From an uncultured Methylococcaceae bacterium (GTDB lineage Bacteria; Pseudomonadota; Gammaproteobacteria; Methylococcales; Methylomonadaceae), in NCBI GenBank assembly GCA_903927955.1, contig CAIYOW010000028.1:1-47274 (forward strand): DNA of 47,274 nucleotides. Reading direction: 5' to 3'. Numbering within the stretch: the stretch's first letter is position 1; the number at the start of each line of letters is the position of its first letter. Shown here piece after piece: positions 16,240 through 25,611 of the stretch. The translations under genes were made by a program, and so were the position numbers. Below the pieces are notes generated by a model. The model searched no databases and was not told the origin of the DNA. It saw only the letters and a program-made list of their open reading frames with translations.

Positions 16240-16926
16240 TCAATCTCCACCACAACCGCTGTCACCGCCATCAAAATCAAAATCTATATCTGAATTTAAC
16301 TTGGACTTGGACTTGGACTTGGACTTGGACTTGGACTTCTTAGATTGTATGTTGAGTAAAATTAATAGCGAAATGGTAAGAGCAACTGCCTGTTTGCTTT
16401 CATATCCAATTAAAGTGTTTGCCCCCAAAAGAAAACCAGCTAAAAGAACAATAATATAATGTGATGCTTTCTTTAAGGTTTCAATGGTTCTTGGTTGACG
16501 GCGAAATCTTTCATTCACATCTGGCCAGATATCGGAAGGTGGTTTTTCACTAAACCATGTTTCATAACTGGTCAGCGTGTTGCTATACCAATGGCGGAAC
16601 TTTTTGGCTTCATCATCTCCACCTTTTGTTGGCTCGTGGTGCAATGGCCTACCTAAAATATTAGGACAAAAGTCTTGCCAATAGGATTGGCTGTAGGTGA
16701 GATGCAAATGCCAAACGGCATCGACTTGCTGGGAGGGTGTAACAGGATGTCCTGCAACCATGGCGAGGAAGGTAAATTTTTTGTATTCGTCGATTGCCCG
16801 TGATGTGAACAATTCGGACCAATTGTTATCTCTTGCTAAACGCTGGCTGAATGTTAGCTGCACACCCGCCACATCCAAGTTAAAATTATCGATACGGCTG
16901 TAGAGTGCTGCTTGTAAGGTGTCCAT
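16240..16926 (-). CDS. Hypothetical membrane protein, glycine-rich-domain/TIGR04222-like
   Basis: VDAVWHLHLTYSQSYWQDFCPNILGRPLHHEPTKGG, TM segments, (KS)n tail and GGDSGCGGD terminus; start set at MDTLQ. Confidence 0.55.
   Translation of the reverse strand: MDTLQAALYSRIDNFNLDVAGVQLTFSQRLARDNNWSELFTSRAIDEYKKFTFLAMVAGHPVTPSQQVDAVWHLHLTYSQSYWQDFCPNILGRPLHHEPTKGGDDEAKKFRHWYSNTLTSYETWFSEKPPSDIWPDVNERFRRQPRTIETLKKASHYIIVLLAGFLLGANTLIGYESKQAVALTISLLILLNIQSKKSKSKSKSKSKSKLNSDIDFDFDGGDSGCGGD
16299..16338. repeat. Hexanucleotide microsatellite (ACTTGG)6+
   Basis: Six full acttgg units plus a partial one; encodes SKSKSKSKSKSK on the minus strand. Confidence 0.95.
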
Positions 16927-17090
16927 AGTATGCTCAAATAAATTGAAACGCGTTAATGGCAAATGACCTACATAAAACAGTATTTTTCTACACGTACCTC
17001 CCAATTTTGACTTCAGCACCACAGGGTTGCCAAACACCTAAGCTGTTTGAGTGTTATTTTTAGTCTTGAACTTTTCACCTATCAAAAAGT

Positions 17091-17116
17091 CATGGGCTAT
17101 TAAATAATAACCCATG
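17091..17116 (-). terminator. Hairpin 3' of the RuMP cluster (weak T-tract)
   Basis: catgggctatta-aa-taataacccatg near-perfect inverted repeat just after the fba stop. Confidence 0.4.
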
Positions 17117-17132
17117 AATCAATAACTATTTC

Positions 17133-18212
17133 TTACAGCGTATTCAATGCATTCAGCTCTTTAAAGGCTTGCTCCAAACGGACAACCATGCCTAACTCAC
17201 CAGCCCGTTGCCAGACGCGTGGGTCATAGAATTTTTTGTTCGGTTTGTCGTCGCCTTCGGGGTTGCCGATTTGGCCTTGCAAGTAGCCTTCATTAGCTTT
17301 GTAGTAGTTCATGATGCCTTCCCATGTTGCCCATTGGGTGTCGGTATCAATGTTCATTTTGATGACGCCATAGCTGATGGATTCTTCAATTTCTTCCGCG
17401 CTAGAACCTGAACCGCCGTGGAATACAAAGTTTAAGCTGTTGGCTGGCACACCGTATTTTTCTGATACGTATTTTTGTGAATTGTCCAAAATGCTTGGGG
17501 TCAATTTAACGTTGCCTGGTTTGTAAACTCCGTGGACGTTGCCAAACGAGGCGGCTATGGTGAACCGTGGGCTGATTTTAATCAGTTCTTCATAAGCATA
17601 AGCAACATCTTCTGGTTGGGTATACAACATGGAATGATCCATGTGGCTGTTGTCCACACCATCTTCTTCACCGCCGGTCACGCCCAATTCAATCTCCAAC
17701 GTCATATCCATTTTGGACATGCGCTGTAAATAGTGGCCACAAATTTCGATGTTTTCTTTCAGGCTTTCTTCTGAAAGGTCAAGCATGTGCGAGCTGAACA
17801 GTGGCTTTCCGGTAGCGGCAAAGCGTTTTTCACCTTCGTCCAACAAACCATCTATCCAAGGCAACAAATTTTTGGCGGCATGGTCGGTATGCAGAATAAC
17901 AGGCACGCCATAATATTCGGCGACTGCATGGACGTGCTGGGCACCTGAAATGGCACCTAAGATAGCCGTTTTTTGGCCTTCCAATTTTAAGCCTTTACCG
18001 GCAACGTATTGCGCGCCACCATTTGAAAATTGTACGATAACAGCAGATTTTGCTTTGGCAGCGGCTTCTAATACGCCATTGATTGAGCCTGTGCTGATAA
18101 CGTTGACGGCTGGTAGAGCGAATTTATTTTCTTTACAGATAGCAAATATTTTTTGTACATCGTCGCCAGTTACTACACCCGGTTTGACGACATCTAAAAT
18201 TTTTTGTGACAT
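17133..18212 (-). CDS. fba: Class II fructose-bisphosphate aldolase
   Basis: 359 aa; VILHTDHAAKNLLPWIDGLL, LEIELGVTGGEEDGVDNS, NFVFHGGSGSSAEEIEESISYGVIKMNIDTDTQWA. Confidence 0.95.
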   Translation of the reverse strand: MSQKILDVVKPGVVTGDDVQKIFAICKENKFALPAVNVISTGSINGVLEAAAKAKSAVIVQFSNGGAQYVAGKGLKLEGQKTAILGAISGAQHVHAVAEYYGVPVILHTDHAAKNLLPWIDGLLDEGEKRFAATGKPLFSSHMLDLSEESLKENIEICGHYLQRMSKMDMTLEIELGVTGGEEDGVDNSHMDHSMLYTQPEDVAYAYEELIKISPRFTIAASFGNVHGVYKPGNVKLTPSILDNSQKYVSEKYGVPANSLNFVFHGGSGSSAEEIEESISYGVIKMNIDTDTQWATWEGIMNYYKANEGYLQGQIGNPEGDDKPNKKFYDPRVWQRAGELGMVVRLEQAFKELNALNTL

Positions 18213-18288: not shown

Positions 18289-19275
18289 TTAAGCTTCTAA
18301 ACTCGCCAATCTTGCTGCCAATAATTCTTCCAGAGACTCCAACGCCTTAGCGAAACCTGAAATACCTTCAGCCAACTTGTCAGTGGCCATACGGTTTTCT
18401 TCGTGCATACGGTCAAAAGTCGCTTTATCTATCGATATTTTTTCAATTTCCAAGCCCGCTGCCGTTGCAGGGTCTAATTTTCTTGGCAATTCGCCTTCAG
18501 TAGCTTGCAGTTCAGCCAATAATGACGGGGCAATGGTCAACAGGTCAGAACCTGCCAATTCGGAAATTTCACCGACATTACGGAAGCTAGCACCCATAAC
18601 TTCAGTTTTATAACCAAATTTTTTGTAGTAGTTATAAATTTCTGTCACTGATACAACACCTGGGTCTTCTGCTGGCTCGTAAGAATCACGTCCGGTGTCT
18701 TTTTTATACCAGTCAAGAATCCGTCCTACGAAAGGAGAAATCAAGGTGATACCATTCTCAGCACAGGCAATCGCTTGGTGGATACCAAACAACAAGGTCA
18801 AATTACAGTGGATGCCTTCTTTTTCCAGTACCGCCGCTGCTTGGATACCTTCCCAAGTCGCTGCGATTTTGATTAACACCCGCTCACGGTTTACATTTTG
18901 AGCTTCATACTGGGCAATCAGTTCACGACCTTTAGCTACGGTTGCCTCTGTGTCGAAAGACAAACGTGCATCCACTTCTGTGGAAACCCGTCCTGGGATA
19001 ATTTCTAAAATCTTAAGTCCAAAGGACACTGCCAACCGGTCAAATGCCAGGGATACGACATCTGCCGCTGAAGCTGAATCGCCTAGTGTCGCTCTTGCAC
19101 CTTTAAGGGTATCGTCAACAATACCTTGGTATTGTGGCATTTGTGCCGCTGCGGTAATCAAAGAAGGATTGGTTGTTGCATCACGGGGTGTAAATTTTTC
19201 AATCGCTTCAATATCACCCGTATCTGCCACAACAATCGTGACTTCTTTAAGTTGCTCCAATAAATTTTTACTCAT
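18289..19275 (-). CDS. tal: Transaldolase
   Basis: [74 protein letters not shown]. Confidence 0.95.
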
Positions 19276-19319: not shown

Positions 19320-20258
19320 TTAACCAAACTGGCGTACGTATTTATCAACGCCTGTTTCGTTTAAGACAACTTGTTGTTTGGCAACTGCCAGTGTTTGTCT
19401 GGCCACATAACGGCTCACGCGGCTTACCTTAGGCAGCGCATCCTGCTGTTGCAAATATTTGGCAACACCAGTCACTTTTGCAACAGGGGTTTCTTTTGCC
19501 ACTATTGCCGATAAGGCCGATTGTTTGGCTAAGTAGCGGGCAACCCGACTAGGCTGCGGCAGGCTCTCTTGTACCGAAAGGTATTTTGCCACGCCGGTCA
19601 ATTTTTTTTCTGGTGCTTTCTGCTTGTCCTGCAACAATTCCAACGCCGCTTGCTTGGCGAGATACTTGGCAACCCTTGATGGTTTAGGTTGGTTTTCTTG
19701 GTTCAGAAGATATTTGGCAACACCGGTGACTTCAAACTTAGTTTCAGTAGCCGCTGGCTGCTGGATGTTGTATTTTGCCAATATGGCTTGTCTGGCCAAA
19801 TATTGCTCAACTTTGCTCGGTTTGGGCAAGCTGTCTTGATGCTTTAAATATTTAGCCACTCCTGTCACTTTGGCAAGGGGTTTTACATTTTTTAAATATT
19901 TTTCCACACCGGTCAGCTGATCCATGACAATTTCTTGTGTTTTTTGCTTTTCTACGAGTGACTGCCTGAGCAAATATTTGCTTACCCCGCTAATTTTATG
20001 TTGCTCAGCTTTTTCAAGGTATTTGGCAACACCTGTGGAAATTGGTGTAGAAGCGTCATCTTCGAGCAGTGCTTGTTGTTCGTTGGTAACAACAATTTGA
20101 CTTTGCAAATATCTCGCTACACCTGTCAGCCCTGATGTGTGCGGTTGGTACACCACAGCTGCAACAGGTTCTATCTCCTCAATTTTTGGCCGTTTCATGA
20201 AAAAGAACAAACCTGCTACTGCAGGCATAAAAAAAACACCCGAATTGTCATGGCTCAT
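19320..20258 (-). CDS. Hypothetical multivalent repeat protein, 13 copies of a [TS]GVxKYL-type motif
   Basis: 312 aa; short hydrophobic N-terminus then [28 protein letters not shown] and four tandem TGVAKYL-x9[15 protein letters not shown] modules, ending [20 protein letters not shown]; starts 3 bp after the upstream stop. Confidence 0.85.
19323..20126 (-). repeat. Degenerate protein-level repeat array (13 motifs)
   Basis: Aligned by eye from the translation of 19320..20258. Confidence 0.85.
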
Positions 20259-20261
20259 TCA

Positions 20262-20990
20262 TTACCCCCGATCGCGCATGTATTTTTCAACCCCAGTCGT
20301 TTTTGTTTGCGCTGTTGTTGTTTTTGCGGCCACAACCTGCTTGGCCACATATTTGGCTACGCCGGTAACAGGTGTGCTAGTTTTTACTTTTTGTTCCAAA
20401 TAGCGGGATACGCCGGTACCTGACACTTTGTTCAAATATCTGGCAACACCGGTATTGGCAATTTTAGTGGTTGCAGACGCAACCCTTGCGCTAGTTGCCA
20501 CTTTTTTAGCTGAACCACAACCGCCTTGTTTTTTGAACAAAAAGCCACCTACTGCAACCAAACCTACCAAACCTAAAATGTAGTTAAGTGAGGTGTCTTC
20601 ATTTTTGGCTGTTTCGCCTGTGGCAGCAACATCAGCAGTTTCAGTTTCTACAGTTTTGGCCACTTTCTCTTCAGTCACTTTAGTGGCTGTGGCTTTTACT
20701 GTTTCACTGGGCTTGTAATTGTCGTCATGATAAATCACTTGGGGCTGAAAATCAGCAGCAGGGTACTTGGAATCGACGGCTGTCGCTTCAACTGCCTTAG
20801 TGGCTGGCTTTGCCGCAGCGGGTGCTGCTTCCGCTTTGCCTTCTTTTGCAATCAAGTCTTTATCTTGATATACAACTTCAGGTTGAAAATCCGCTGCCGG
20901 ATATTTTGAATCTGCATTAACTAGAGGACTAGCTAACAGCACTGCTACCAATAAACTGTTCGTCAAATGTTTGTTTTTCACGTTGTTCAC
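20262..20990 (-). CDS. Hypothetical exported/membrane protein with two DSKYPAADFQP repeats, one TM segment and four TGVxKYL motifs
   Basis: Signal peptide MNNVKNKHLTNSLLVAVLLASPLVNA; DSKYPAADFQPEVVY and DSKYPAADFQPQVIY; TM LNYILGLVGLVAVGGFLF; TGVARYL, TGVSRYL, TGVAKYV, TGVEKYM. Confidence 0.85.
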   Translation of the reverse strand: MNNVKNKHLTNSLLVAVLLASPLVNADSKYPAADFQPEVVYQDKDLIAKEGKAEAAPAAAKPATKAVEATAVDSKYPAADFQPQVIYHDDNYKPSETVKATATKVTEEKVAKTVETETADVAATGETAKNEDTSLNYILGLVGLVAVGGFLFKKQGGCGSAKKVATSARVASATTKIANTGVARYLNKVSGTGVSRYLEQKVKTSTPVTGVAKYVAKQVVAAKTTTAQTKTTGVEKYMRDRG

Positions 20991-21085: not shown

Positions 21086-23080
21086 TTAAAATAATGCTTC
21101 TACGTTCTTCACTACGTTGTCAACAGTGAAGCCGAACTCCTTGAATAACTCGCCCGCTGGCGCTGATTCGCCAAAGCGGTCGAGACCCAATATCCTTCCA
21201 TTTGTACCCACATACTTCCACCAACCATCGGTGACACCCGCTTCAACAGCTAAGCGTCTTGTTATGGCCTTAGGCAATACCGATTCTTTGTAGGCTTCAT
21301 CTTGGGCATCAAACACGTTAGTTGACGGCATTGACACCACGCGCACTTTTTTACCGCTTTCAGCAAGCTGTGCCGCCGCTTTCAATGCCAAATCAATTTC
21401 GGAGCCAGTAGCGATAATAATGGCATCAGCCACACCGTCACAATCGCCCAATACATAACCACCCTTGGCAACTAATGCCAGCTGTTCGCTGGTACGGGGG
21501 ATATGCGGCAAGTTCTGGCGCGAGAAAACCAATACTGATGGGCCGTCTTGACGCTCCAATGCCAACTGCCAAGAAATGGCTGTTTCAACAGCATCACAAG
21601 GACGCCAAACATTCATACCTGGAATCATCCGCAATGTTGCGGTTTGTTCAATCGGCTGATGGGTCGGACCATCTTCACCAAGACCAATTGAATCGTGGGT
21701 ATAGACGAAGATCGAACGGATTTTCATCAATGACGCCATACGCACGGCATTTCTTGCGTATTCAGAGAACATCAGGAATGTCGCGCCAAACGGAATGAAA
21801 CCACCGTGCAATGCGATACCATTCATGATGGCTGACATACCAAATTCACGCACGCCGTAGTTGACGTAGTTCGCATCGGGCTTGTCATGGCGCATGGGCT
21901 TATAACCTGACCATTCAGTCATGTTTGAGCAACCCAAATCGGCAGAACCGCCAAATATTTCTGGCAATATTTTGGCGAAGCCTTCAATTGATGCCAATGA
22001 AGAAAGCCTTGTTGCAGTGGTTTTGGCTTCCGCATCTACGCTGGCAACAAAACCGGCAGCTTGCTCTGACCAATCAGCAGGCAATTCGCCGGACATACGT
22101 CTTGCAAATTCACTCGCCAATTCTGGATGGGCAGCCTGGTAGGCGGCAAATTTTTCATTCCACGCAGCTTCCGCAGCGACACCTTTGGCTTTGGCATCCC
22201 AGCCCGCATAAACATTGGCAGGAATTTCAAACGAGCCGTAATCCCAACCTAGCGCCGCTTTGGTCAGGTTGATTTCTGCATCACCTAATGGCGCACCATG
22301 ACAAGCATGGCTACCGGCTTTATTGGGTGAGCCAAAACCTATGGTGGTTTTGCAGCAAACCAAGGTTGGTTTGTCCGTAACGGCTTTTGCCATTTGGATG
22401 GCATTGGCTATTTCTTCAGCATTATGCCCATCAACATCGGCAATGACATGCCAGCCGTAGGCCTCAAAACGTTTAGGCGTATTATCAGTAAACCAGCCTT
22501 CAACATGACCATCGATGGAGATACCATTGTCATCCCAGAATGCTATCAAGTTGCCCAAGCCTAATGTGCCGGCCAGTGAACATGCTTCATGGGAAATCCC
22601 TTCCATTAAGCAACCATCACCCAAGAACACATAGGTGTGGTGATCAACAATCTTATGTCCATCCCTGTTAAATTGTGCAGCCAATGCTTTTTCGGCTATA
22701 GCCATGCCGACGGCGTTGGTAATGCCTTGTCCCAAAGGCCCTGTAGTGGTCTCTACGCCAGGCGCATAGCCATATTCAGGGTGACCCGGGGTTTTGGAAT
22801 GAAGTTGGCGGAATTTTTGTAATTCTTCAATAGGAAGATCATAGCCTGTCAGATGCAATAGGGAATAGATGAGCATCGACCCATGACCATTCGATAATAC
22901 GAAGCGATCGCGGTTAGGCCATTTTGGATTGGTGGGGTTATGGGTCATGTAATCATTCCATAACACCTCAGCAATATCCGCCATCCCCATTGGGGCTCCT
23001 GGATGACCAGAATTTGCCTTTTGCACAGCATCCATGCTTAAAGCGCGTATGGCATTCGCTAGTTCACGGCGCGAAGTCAT
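21086..23080 (-). CDS. tkt: Transketolase
   Basis: 664 aa; [95 protein letters not shown]. Confidence 0.97.
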
Positions 23081-23223: not shown

Positions 23224-23757
23224 TTACTCTAAATTGGCGTGTCTTTCACGCATCACTTCTTCGGGAATGCCTTTCTCATGTATGACATGGGATATGGTCG
23301 ATTCCAAAAATAGCAATGTTGATAATTCAAAGACTGTTCCCATTGGCATACCAAACACTTTTGCGTATTGTTCGGCACGGCCAATTTGGAAAACGGCTTC
23401 AGCCATGTCGCCAATGGTTGACTCAGCCTTAGCTGATATCAACACGATACTGGCACCAATTTTCTTGGCGCTTTTAGTAAAGGCTATGAGCTGTTCCGTT
23501 TCGCCAGAGCCAGAGATAATAATCAGCAGGTCGCCGCTTTTGATGCTAGGCGTTACGATTTCACCTACGACGCTGACATCATAACCGGCGTGTACCAGTC
23601 TCATTGCAAAGAAGTTGCCCACCAACTTGGAGCGGCCTGCACCTGCTATGAAAATGCGCTTGGCATTATCCAGCAGGGCAGTCAACTTTACATCGTACGA
23701 GTCGTCTGTTGCTTCAAGGATGCTTGAAATTTTTTCTATGACAAGCTGCTGATGCAT
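23224..23757 (-). CDS. phi: 6-phospho-3-hexuloisomerase
   Basis: 177 aa SIS domain: RIFIAGAGRSKLVGNFFAMRLVHAGYDVSVVGEIVTPSIKSGDLLIIISGSGET; immediately downstream of hps. Confidence 0.94.
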   Translation of the reverse strand: MHQQLVIEKISSILEATDDSYDVKLTALLDNAKRIFIAGAGRSKLVGNFFAMRLVHAGYDVSVVGEIVTPSIKSGDLLIIISGSGETEQLIAFTKSAKKIGASIVLISAKAESTIGDMAEAVFQIGRAEQYAKVFGMPMGTVFELSTLLFLESTISHVIHEKGIPEEVMRERHANLE

Positions 23758-23760
23758 TAC

Positions 23761-24408
23761 TTATACCTCAGTTGCGTCAACCAACTCACGAATTTCACGA
23801 GCCGCTTCAGCTGGGCATGGTGCGCCATAAATTGCTGCACCAACAACAATGATGTTCGCGCCTGCGCGTACCACGTCTTGGACAGTTGCGGCTTTAATGC
23901 CACCTGCAACAGAAATTCTGACTGGCAAGCCTAAAGCGGCAATGTCGTTCAAATCTGAGAAAGGTGTGTGGCCAGCGGCTTGGGCATCAAGACCAGTGTG
24001 GATACCCATGACGTGGGCACCTGCTTCAGCAGTTGCAAGGGCACATGCCACTTTATCTTCTACGTTGATCAAGTCGATTTGTGCTTCTGCACCGTGTGCA
24101 TTGGCTGCTTTGATGACGCCTACACAAGTGGCCAAACCAGAAACACCCAACACTGTACAAATATCTGCGCCAGCGGCGTAGAAAGGAGTCGCTTCGTATT
24201 CGCCAGCGTCCATAGTTTTCAGGTCAACCAAGATCAGTTTGTCTGGGAATTTAGCTCTCAGTTCTTTTACCAGATTAACACCATTGTGTTTGATGCATGG
24301 AGTTCCAATTTCAAAAATATCAACAAAAGGAGCTACTTGCGTAGCCAATCCTACTGTTGCGTCAAAATCCAATGAGTCTAATGCCATTTGAATTAATGGT
24401 TTTGCCAT
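23761..24408 (-). CDS. hps: 3-hexulose-6-phosphate synthase
   Basis: 215 aa; QMALDSLDF, FVDIFEIGTPCIKHNGVNLVKELRAKFPDKLILVDLKTMDAGEYEATPFYAAGADICTVLG, ISVAGGIK. Confidence 0.95.
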   Translation of the reverse strand: MAKPLIQMALDSLDFDATVGLATQVAPFVDIFEIGTPCIKHNGVNLVKELRAKFPDKLILVDLKTMDAGEYEATPFYAAGADICTVLGVSGLATCVGVIKAANAHGAEAQIDLINVEDKVACALATAEAGAHVMGIHTGLDAQAAGHTPFSDLNDIAALGLPVRISVAGGIKAATVQDVVRAGANIIVVGAAIYGAPCPAEAAREIRELVDATEV

Positions 24409-24801
24409 GATATTTGCTCCGAAGGGTTATATATAGTATTTATTGTTTGTACATAATTGTTTTGCGGTGATAACTGTAAAGAGAAAGCTCGCGGATGTCA
24501 ATGCCCAATGCTTATTGCACCCCATCACGCGTGCATGGTCTGCACCAAGGCAAGTGTGCCGCCTTATCGACCTGCTCTTTTATGTCAATTTTTTCATAAT
24601 TTTGTTGCATTATTGTGGCATCCTTATTACCAAATGCAGACAGCCATACCCTAGCCATTTTTATGCAGGCAATGCCCGCTTCCGCAGCGATAGCTTTGGC
24701 AAGCGCTGATGTCAACTTGTCCGCACCGATTGTCATGCCGTTGCCAAACCCTGTTTAGTGACGGCACACTGAATCTGATTACCTTACATAGGACTGTAAA
24801 C

Positions 24802-25611
24802 ATGCCAAACCTAAGTGATATGAAGGCTTTTATTATTGATATGGACGGGGTTTTATGGCTCGGTTCCAAGCCCTTGCCGGGTCTGGTAGAATTTTTTGAC
24901 ACCTTGCACCAGCTGGGCGCAACTTACGTTTTGGCGACCAACAACGCCAGTGCCACTGCCGGGCAATACGTCACCAAGTTGGCCAACATGGGTGTTTCGG
25001 TAGCGGCAGGGCAGATACTCACGTCCGGTATGGCGACCGCGCATTACCTTGCCCAACACTACCCGCCAGCCGACACAAAAGTGTTTGTGGTGGGTGAAGA
25101 CGGGGCCACCCAGCCATTGCTCGCCCATGGCTTCACACTCACTGGCCTCTATGAAAAAGACGCCGACATTGTGGTGTGCGGTAAAGATGCCACGCTAACA
25201 TGGGATAAGCTAGCCACGGCATCCATCAATATCAGGGAAGGAGCAAAGTTTTTCGGGACTAATGCGGATACCTCCTTGCCTACTGAACGCGGCGTTATCC
25301 TCGGTAACGGTGCCATTTTAAAAGCGCTGGAAGTGGCTACCGGCGTTAGCCCTATCGTGATAGGCAAACCAGAACCTGTTTTCTACCAGCAGGCAATGGC
25401 CTTGCTTAATGCCAAACCGGAACATACGCTTGCCATTGGCGACCGCCTCGAAACAGACATCTTAGGGGCTGTCCGGACAGGTATCAGTAGCTTGATGGTA
25501 TTGACCGGCATTTCTACTGAAAAGGATTTGGCCTGCTCGACTTATCAACCCACTTGGGTTGAGCGCGATCTTTACGCTGTCACCGCCGCATTACTGGCAA
25601 GCCAGCTTTAA
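24802..25611 (+). CDS. HAD-IIA family hydrolase (NagD-like sugar/nucleotide phosphatase)
   Basis: IDMDGVLWLGSKPLPGLVEFFDTLHQLGATYVLATNNAS, IGKPEPVFYQQAM, LAIGDRLETDILGAVRTGISSLMVLTG; start set at MPNLSD. Confidence 0.9.
   Translation: MPNLSDMKAFIIDMDGVLWLGSKPLPGLVEFFDTLHQLGATYVLATNNASATAGQYVTKLANMGVSVAAGQILTSGMATAHYLAQHYPPADTKVFVVGEDGATQPLLAHGFTLTGLYEKDADIVVCGKDATLTWDKLATASINIREGAKFFGTNADTSLPTERGVILGNGAILKALEVATGVSPIVIGKPEPVFYQQAMALLNAKPEHTLAIGDRLETDILGAVRTGISSLMVLTGISTEKDLACSTYQPTWVERDLYAVTAALLASQL

Follow-up and report, generated by a model that had tools for sequence, protein, structure and literature searches.

What do two proteins that carry copies of a short motif contribute to an operon of RuMP genes? 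The question is raised by hps-phi-tkt-P242-P312-tal-fba, seven genes on the minus strand of a contig from an uncultured, Methylovulum-type methanotroph (CAIYOW010000028.1). The window referred to throughout is the whole stretch of DNA analysed, 47,274 nucleotides long. A preliminary description, made from the sequence of the window, had proposed that the products of the two ORFs between tkt and tal recruit RuMP enzymes into a condensate or metabolon.

The operon and its two motif proteins

The intergenic gaps from hps to fba are, in order, 3 (hps-phi), 143, 95, 3 (P242-P312), 44 and 76 bp. The layout agrees with the preliminary description in full: both ORFs begin and end exactly where it placed them, the run from hps to fba lies on one strand with gaps of 3–143 bp, and the identities of the flanking genes were confirmed (Table 1). 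A consensus scan found a good −35/−10 pair (TTGACA-17-TACAGT) 5' of hps, and a strong hairpin-plus-T signal lies 3' of fba at 17090–17117.

Table 1. Position of the operon genes and of the segments of P242 and P312 in the window
Feature	Position	Strand	Details or basis
hps, 3-hexulose-6-phosphate synthase	23761..24408	-	TIGR03128, 238 bits
phi, 6-phospho-3-hexuloisomerase	23224..23757	-	TIGR03127
tkt, transketolase	21086..23080	-	Family match
P242	20262..20990	-	242 aa, GTG start; predicted modular transmembrane adaptor
P242, signal-peptide-like N-terminus, residues 1-26	20913..20990	-	A26 invariant in alignment
P242, predicted periplasmic motif copy 1, SKYPAADFQPEVVYQD, residues 28-43	20862..20909	-	Alignment
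P242, predicted periplasmic motif copy 2, SKYPAADFQPQVIYHD, residues 74-89	20724..20771	-	Alignment
P242, transmembrane segment, residues 134-152, SLNYILGLVGLVAVGGFLF, then KK	20535..20591	-	Kyte-Doolittle 1.91; conserved in alignment
P242, predicted cytosolic tail, residues 180-238, four TGVx[KR]Y[LVM]	20277..20453	-	Motif count, alignment
P312	19320..20258	-	312 aa, ATG start, 13 motif copies; homologues in syntenic position with 4-17 copies
P312, N-terminal hydrophobic segment, residues 8-21, KR after	20196..20237	-	Hydrophobicity/moment
P312, array, residues 45-308, 13 motifs	19335..20126	-	Motif count
tal, transaldolase	18289..19275	-	Family match
fba, class II fructose-bisphosphate aldolase, last operon gene	17133..18212	-	Family match

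Two further genes flank the operon. Directly upstream of hps and divergent from it, 24709–25611 on the plus strand encodes what looks by eye like a NagD-like HAD phosphatase, possibly a housekeeping enzyme for RuMP sugar phosphates; a NagD-like HAD gene is also divergent upstream of hps in the second family described below (L249:7112-8008, L251:5084-5935 and L253:10892-11734). The product of the gene after the operon (16240–17037, minus strand) shows a weak GRDP-like match, contains a KSKSKSK stretch and has a C-terminus rich in Gly and Cys; searches of Pfam/NCBIfam-type families gave no confident family for it.

P312 contains nine copies of [T/S]GVx[K/R]Y[L/V/M] and four of the variant S[R/K]Vx[R/K/Q]Y[L/V]A[R/K]Q, and P242 contains four TGVxKYL-type copies; the counts of 13 and 4 given earlier are exact. 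They lie far above those of 2000 composition-preserving shuffles, which averaged 0.017 copies per protein for P312 and 0.008 for P242, with a maximum of 1. Across the host genome, a loose DNA pattern of the motif clusters only at P242/P312 and elsewhere stays at the level of a reversed-pattern control; genome-wide motif counts were based on pattern and profile searches. Among 299 distinct Methylococcales copies, anchored on V..Y, the consensus reads T/S, mostly G, V, A/S/E, K/R, Y and mostly L, with a Q often four residues past the tyrosine. The motif recurs between variable, low-complexity spacers, in 2–17 copies in homologues, and the P242 alignment preserves both motif types and the transmembrane segment.

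Neither ORF has a credible Pfam/NCBIfam domain, in keeping with the earlier remark that no enzymatic domain could be recognised, and P312 has no solved relative in the PDB. The only Pfam match of P312 above the cut-off, to U1snRNP70_N (PF12220), reaches 35 bits in total and covers positions 4–47 of 92 in low-complexity sequence; since no individual stretch passes, we treat it as compositional. Matches to DPC2 (diatom pyrenoid) and ATP_synth_reg were likewise judged to be chance or compositional. No Pfam/NCBIfam match places P242 or P312 in the CsoS2 or EPYC1 families.

From N- to C-terminus, P242 comprises a signal peptide, two YPAADFxPxVxYxD copies, a variable stretch, a single transmembrane span, lysines and the four TGVxKYL motifs. 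The fuller form of this motif is SKYPAADFQPxV[VI]YxD. In the first periplasmic copy, P31 and P37 are invariant in the P242 alignment, and Y30, F35 and D43 are conserved in at least 90% of the sequences; several homologues have lost the second copy or keep a single one. Hydropathy and conservation together give P242 the marks of a bitopic membrane protein, with an N-terminal signal sequence, a span of about 19 aa and positive residues on the cytosolic side. Because of the positive-inside rule, the YPAADF motif is predicted to face the periplasm or the intracytoplasmic-membrane lumen, with TGVxKYL on the cytosolic side, a topology read from hydropathy alone. P312 homologues carry amphipathic N-terminal segments, such as NLFEQFISMFG or GLFASICGFFKSLF, as judged by hydrophobicity and moment. 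With the signal and transmembrane segments of P242 and the hydrophobic or amphipathic N-termini of the P312 type, both proteins look membrane-targeted. This two-sided architecture, with a second motif across the membrane, is absent from the preliminary description.

The periplasmic motif also occurs in small secreted proteins that are almost nothing other than two to three KYPAADFxPxVIYxD copies, one of them in the host genome (G000:C129:5107-5445, locus L090) and others at L092:8182-8484, L094:4725-4997 and L108:3050-3466. An SsuABC/TauABC-like ABC transporter operon adjoins these genes in L090, L094 and apparently L108.

Distribution and linkage with RuMP genes

The presence of P242, Hps and the pMMO family was scored in 251 Methylococcales genomes, and outliers were examined again with the profile. 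P242 homologues were found in 214 of the 251, syntenic with hps-phi-tkt/tal/fba. A scan of an 84,980-species collection gave 149 P242 relatives, the best 80 of which belong nearly all to methanotrophs (Methylovulum, Methylobacter, Methylomicrobium, Methylomonas, Methylotuvimicrobium, Methyloprofundus, Crenothrix and others), a few of these 80 being labelled only 'Gammaproteobacteria bacterium' or 'bacterium'. The same scan places the genus of the window as Methylovulum-like. The genome of Methylotuvimicrobium buryatense 5G has an operon of the P242/P312 type.

The preliminary description had pointed to conserved linkage with hps, phi, tkt, tal and fba as a check on its proposal, and the five genes behave differently. 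Of 47 loci, 46 have both hps and phi close by on the same strand and the remaining one is cut by a contig end, so that linkage to this pair holds in every uninterrupted locus. For tal it holds in most, on the same strand and, in most families, adjacent. There is no general linkage to tkt and fba, neither of which is present in any of the 16 second-family loci; in family f4, fba is missing from 8 of 9 loci and tkt and fba are mostly not close. The constant partners over the 47 loci are therefore Hps and Phi. Family f4 is of the Methylococcaceae type with a rearranged operon, in which the P242 motif array lies 91–384 bp upstream of hps, and its duplicated RuMP loci resemble that of Methylococcus (PMC517821, PMC8527097). 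At L122 and L124, P312 is placed between duplicated hps-phi cassettes. Extra P312-like motif proteins are encoded away from the RuMP operon (L112:9462-10358, L096:7442-8272 and L098:8980-9663), and among such genes one is near a dxs-like gene and one near a gene for a small heat-shock-like protein.

Genetic association with the proposed client enzyme is conserved not only as linkage to hps and phi but also as co-occurrence beyond the order. Applied to 369 Gammaproteobacteria, the P242 profile matched exactly the six genomes in which the Hps model scored above its cut-off and none of the other 363. The chance of this coincidence is 3e-13 if the genomes are taken as independent, and phylogenetically they represent only two clades; the evidence is therefore one of strong linkage in two lineages and not of hundreds of independent events. 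An order-level Fisher test made with rounded counts is given no weight here. A phylum sample added 328 other genomes, again without the motif. Motif proteins occurring across taxa without RuMP genes, which the preliminary description had named as evidence against its proposal, were thus sought in both samples and did not appear. Within Methylococcales, every tail-positive, Hps-negative genome examined is interrupted by a contig end at hps or close to it: the contigs stop at phi, P242 or P312.

Separable modules and a second family

The two ends of P242 are distributed differently. Families f7 and f8, which have no Hps but have pMMO-family genes in many members, have neither module. The pmoA-positive, hps-negative f2 (G009) has the signal peptide, two periplasmic motifs and transmembrane segment, with no TGVxKYL tail. 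In the Hps-positive f6, the periplasmic and transmembrane part is joined to a different conserved tail, an acidic stretch ending NRQRANKTKRSRRR (L316, L320, L324, L325); in two genomes related to the f6 cases, a P242-like gene lies near mutS (L100, L109). From these patterns it follows that the cytosolic motif goes with hps, and that the periplasmic motif occurs also without it. Conversely, hps-positive lineages that lack the tail include f6 and eight f4 genomes (G025, G033, G045, G052, G061, G081, G093 and G099), and since there are several such lineages, the TGVxKYL tail is not essential to RuMP.

Three of the six hps-positive genomes in the class sample belong to the second family, f10, probably Methylophagaceae. 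Here the gene between hps and tal, in the order hps-[motif]-tal-hps-phi, encodes a motif protein of 97–187 aa that combines TGVERYI-type repeats with an amphipathic N-terminus. The repeats match in 54 of 57 f10 members, and none of six genomes of the sister family has the motif. Only this short motif protein is encoded in f10; the periplasmic module was not detectable.

The f10 genomes also encode a giant CheA (PilL/ChpA-like, with Hpt domains; 1827–2035 aa) whose linkers carry two to six TSVDRYI/TGVERYL copies (L250:5745-11852 and L284–L289), at positions that differ between species. With the motif present in CheA too, its direct partner may be something other than a RuMP enzyme, or not a RuMP enzyme alone. 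CheA could share the RuMP enzyme on which the motif proteins would dock, or the receptor could be another molecule altogether.

Structure prediction and sequence comparison were also used to look for a docking site. In a natural in-frame read-through chain of hps and motif protein (L298), AlphaFold folded Hps well and gave the motif helices a pLDDT of about 30–55, with no confident docking. For the control, a read-through chain of motif protein and tal at the same locus, the Tal alignment was too shallow for a judgement. The motif segments of both chains were predicted as isolated helices. When Hps, Phi, Tal and Tkt were compared between loci with and without the motif, only isolated positions stood out (e.g. 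Hps A142 and E201), with no clustered candidate site.

A candidate membrane-anchored scaffold

We propose, with about even confidence, that P242 and P312 together make a multivalent scaffold, anchored in the membrane and built on short linear motifs, that serves formaldehyde fixation in the RuMP cycle. The proposal builds on what was observed: their architecture and conservation, their linkage, the co-occurrence with hps and the way the two modules separate. A scaffold or recruiter is the best reading of motif proteins that are multivalent and largely spacer-like, and that are conserved and tied to RuMP genes. P242 would be exported by its signal peptide and stay in the inner membrane, including the intracytoplasmic membranes, with its YPAADFxPxVxYxD repeats exposed in the periplasm or membrane lumen and its four helical TGVxKYL motifs in the cytosol. 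P312 would be cytosolic, contacting the membrane by its N-terminal segment and adding its 13 motifs. The TGVxKYL motifs may then dock on an oligomeric RuMP enzyme, for which Hps is the most likely predicted client and Phi or Tal are the alternatives. A dense layer of Hps and Phi at the membrane could trap the formaldehyde that methanol dehydrogenase releases in the periplasm before it can spread, and the periplasmic motif might have its partner in methane/methanol oxidation. More tentatively, P242 may physically link methane/methanol oxidation in the periplasm with the enzyme that fixes formaldehyde in the cytosol, with P312 extending the layer, and the f10 motif may tie CheA to RuMP enzymes so that motility reads formaldehyde assimilation.

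Other explanations account for parts of these data. The motif could be a helix for docking or self-association in general, with a receptor outside RuMP, for example a hub protein or the motif itself; the proteins would then shape structures at the membrane or pole, owe their place in the RuMP operon to co-regulation and share their hub with CheA. The shifting motif positions in the CheA linkers, the prediction of isolated helices and the motif proteins away from RuMP genes (L096, L098, L112) would all fit. However, a generic hub motif should be more widespread, and there are no motif arrays in the hps-negative genomes of the class and phylum samples or in the f10 sister family; we regard this explanation as unlikely. 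That P242 is a transmembrane relay or regulator, its periplasmic motif reporting on methane/methanol oxidation and its tail modulating Hps activity without any scaffolding, would suit the two-sided architecture, the separable modules and the swapped tails. P242 has no folded sensor domain, though, the f10 motif protein lacks the periplasmic module, and a P312 copy number that is high and variable (up to 17) fits multivalency rather than signalling; we consider a relay improbable.

Still less should be expected of the literal form of the preliminary proposal, a soluble condensate or metabolon gathering Hps, Phi, Tkt, Tal and Fba, which we consider quite improbable. All five genes are indeed in the operon of the window's family, but tkt and fba show no linkage in f10, and in f4 they mostly do not lie nearby, which removes Tkt and Fba as general partners and with them the idea of a whole-cycle scaffold; and the signal peptide and transmembrane segment of P242, like the hydrophobic or amphipathic N-termini of the P312 type, argue against a soluble one. 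What stands of that proposal is its direction, a conserved, RuMP-linked and multivalent scaffold for RuMP enzymes. An organiser of intracytoplasmic membranes or of pMMO, merely co-expressed with the RuMP genes, would be in line with P242 being a predicted membrane protein of methanotrophs and with the periplasmic module recurring in small secreted paralogues. Yet the cytosolic motif is absent from pMMO-family-positive, hps-negative families and present in f10, a probably non-methanotrophic family; given this second family, the pMMO/membrane reading of the motif was set aside as very improbable.

As a membrane-anchored scaffold, P242 and P312 would have both parallels and differences among known systems. 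EPYC1 of the pyrenoid and CsoS2 of the alpha-carboxysome are disordered repeat-motif scaffolds whose short helical motifs bind and condense an enzyme. P242 and P312 resemble them as low-complexity proteins with many short helical motif copies, encoded or expressed with a carbon-fixing enzyme, and by analogy multivalent client binding is probable. Unlike EPYC1 and CsoS2, to which no sequence relation was found, they have a RuMP enzyme and not Rubisco as proposed client, are predicted to be membrane-anchored without a shell and, in P242, span the membrane with a second motif on the opposite side. Engineered Mdh-Hps-Phi assemblies and Hps-Phi fusions limit the escape of formaldehyde (PMC9214030, reviewing Orita 2007 and Price 2016). 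The proposed purpose of P242 and P312, co-localised production and capture of formaldehyde, is the same; those assemblies are man-made, through SH3-ligand pairs or fusion, and P242/P312 would be a natural, motif-based counterpart. A natural fused Hps-Phi (NF041755 type), an open frame of about 390–400 aa at a separate locus in the same genomes (host genome C86), also brings Hps and Phi together and is not a motif scaffold. In the open-access literature searched, no RuMP scaffold, metabolon or condensate is described, nor is the motif itself, and the P242/P312 pair is previously undescribed there.

In periplasmic methanol oxidation, formaldehyde is made on one side of the membrane and fixed on the other. 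To our knowledge, how such methylotrophs escape formaldehyde self-poisoning is not settled, and a conserved, membrane-anchored Hps recruiter would, if confirmed, be a concrete answer. In the 1970s, the Hps of Methylococcus capsulatus was reportedly associated with the particulate fraction; a recruiter of this kind could explain those old reports. Synthetic methylotrophy, in which the co-localisation of Mdh, Hps and Phi has had to be engineered (PMC9214030), would also gain a natural component from it.
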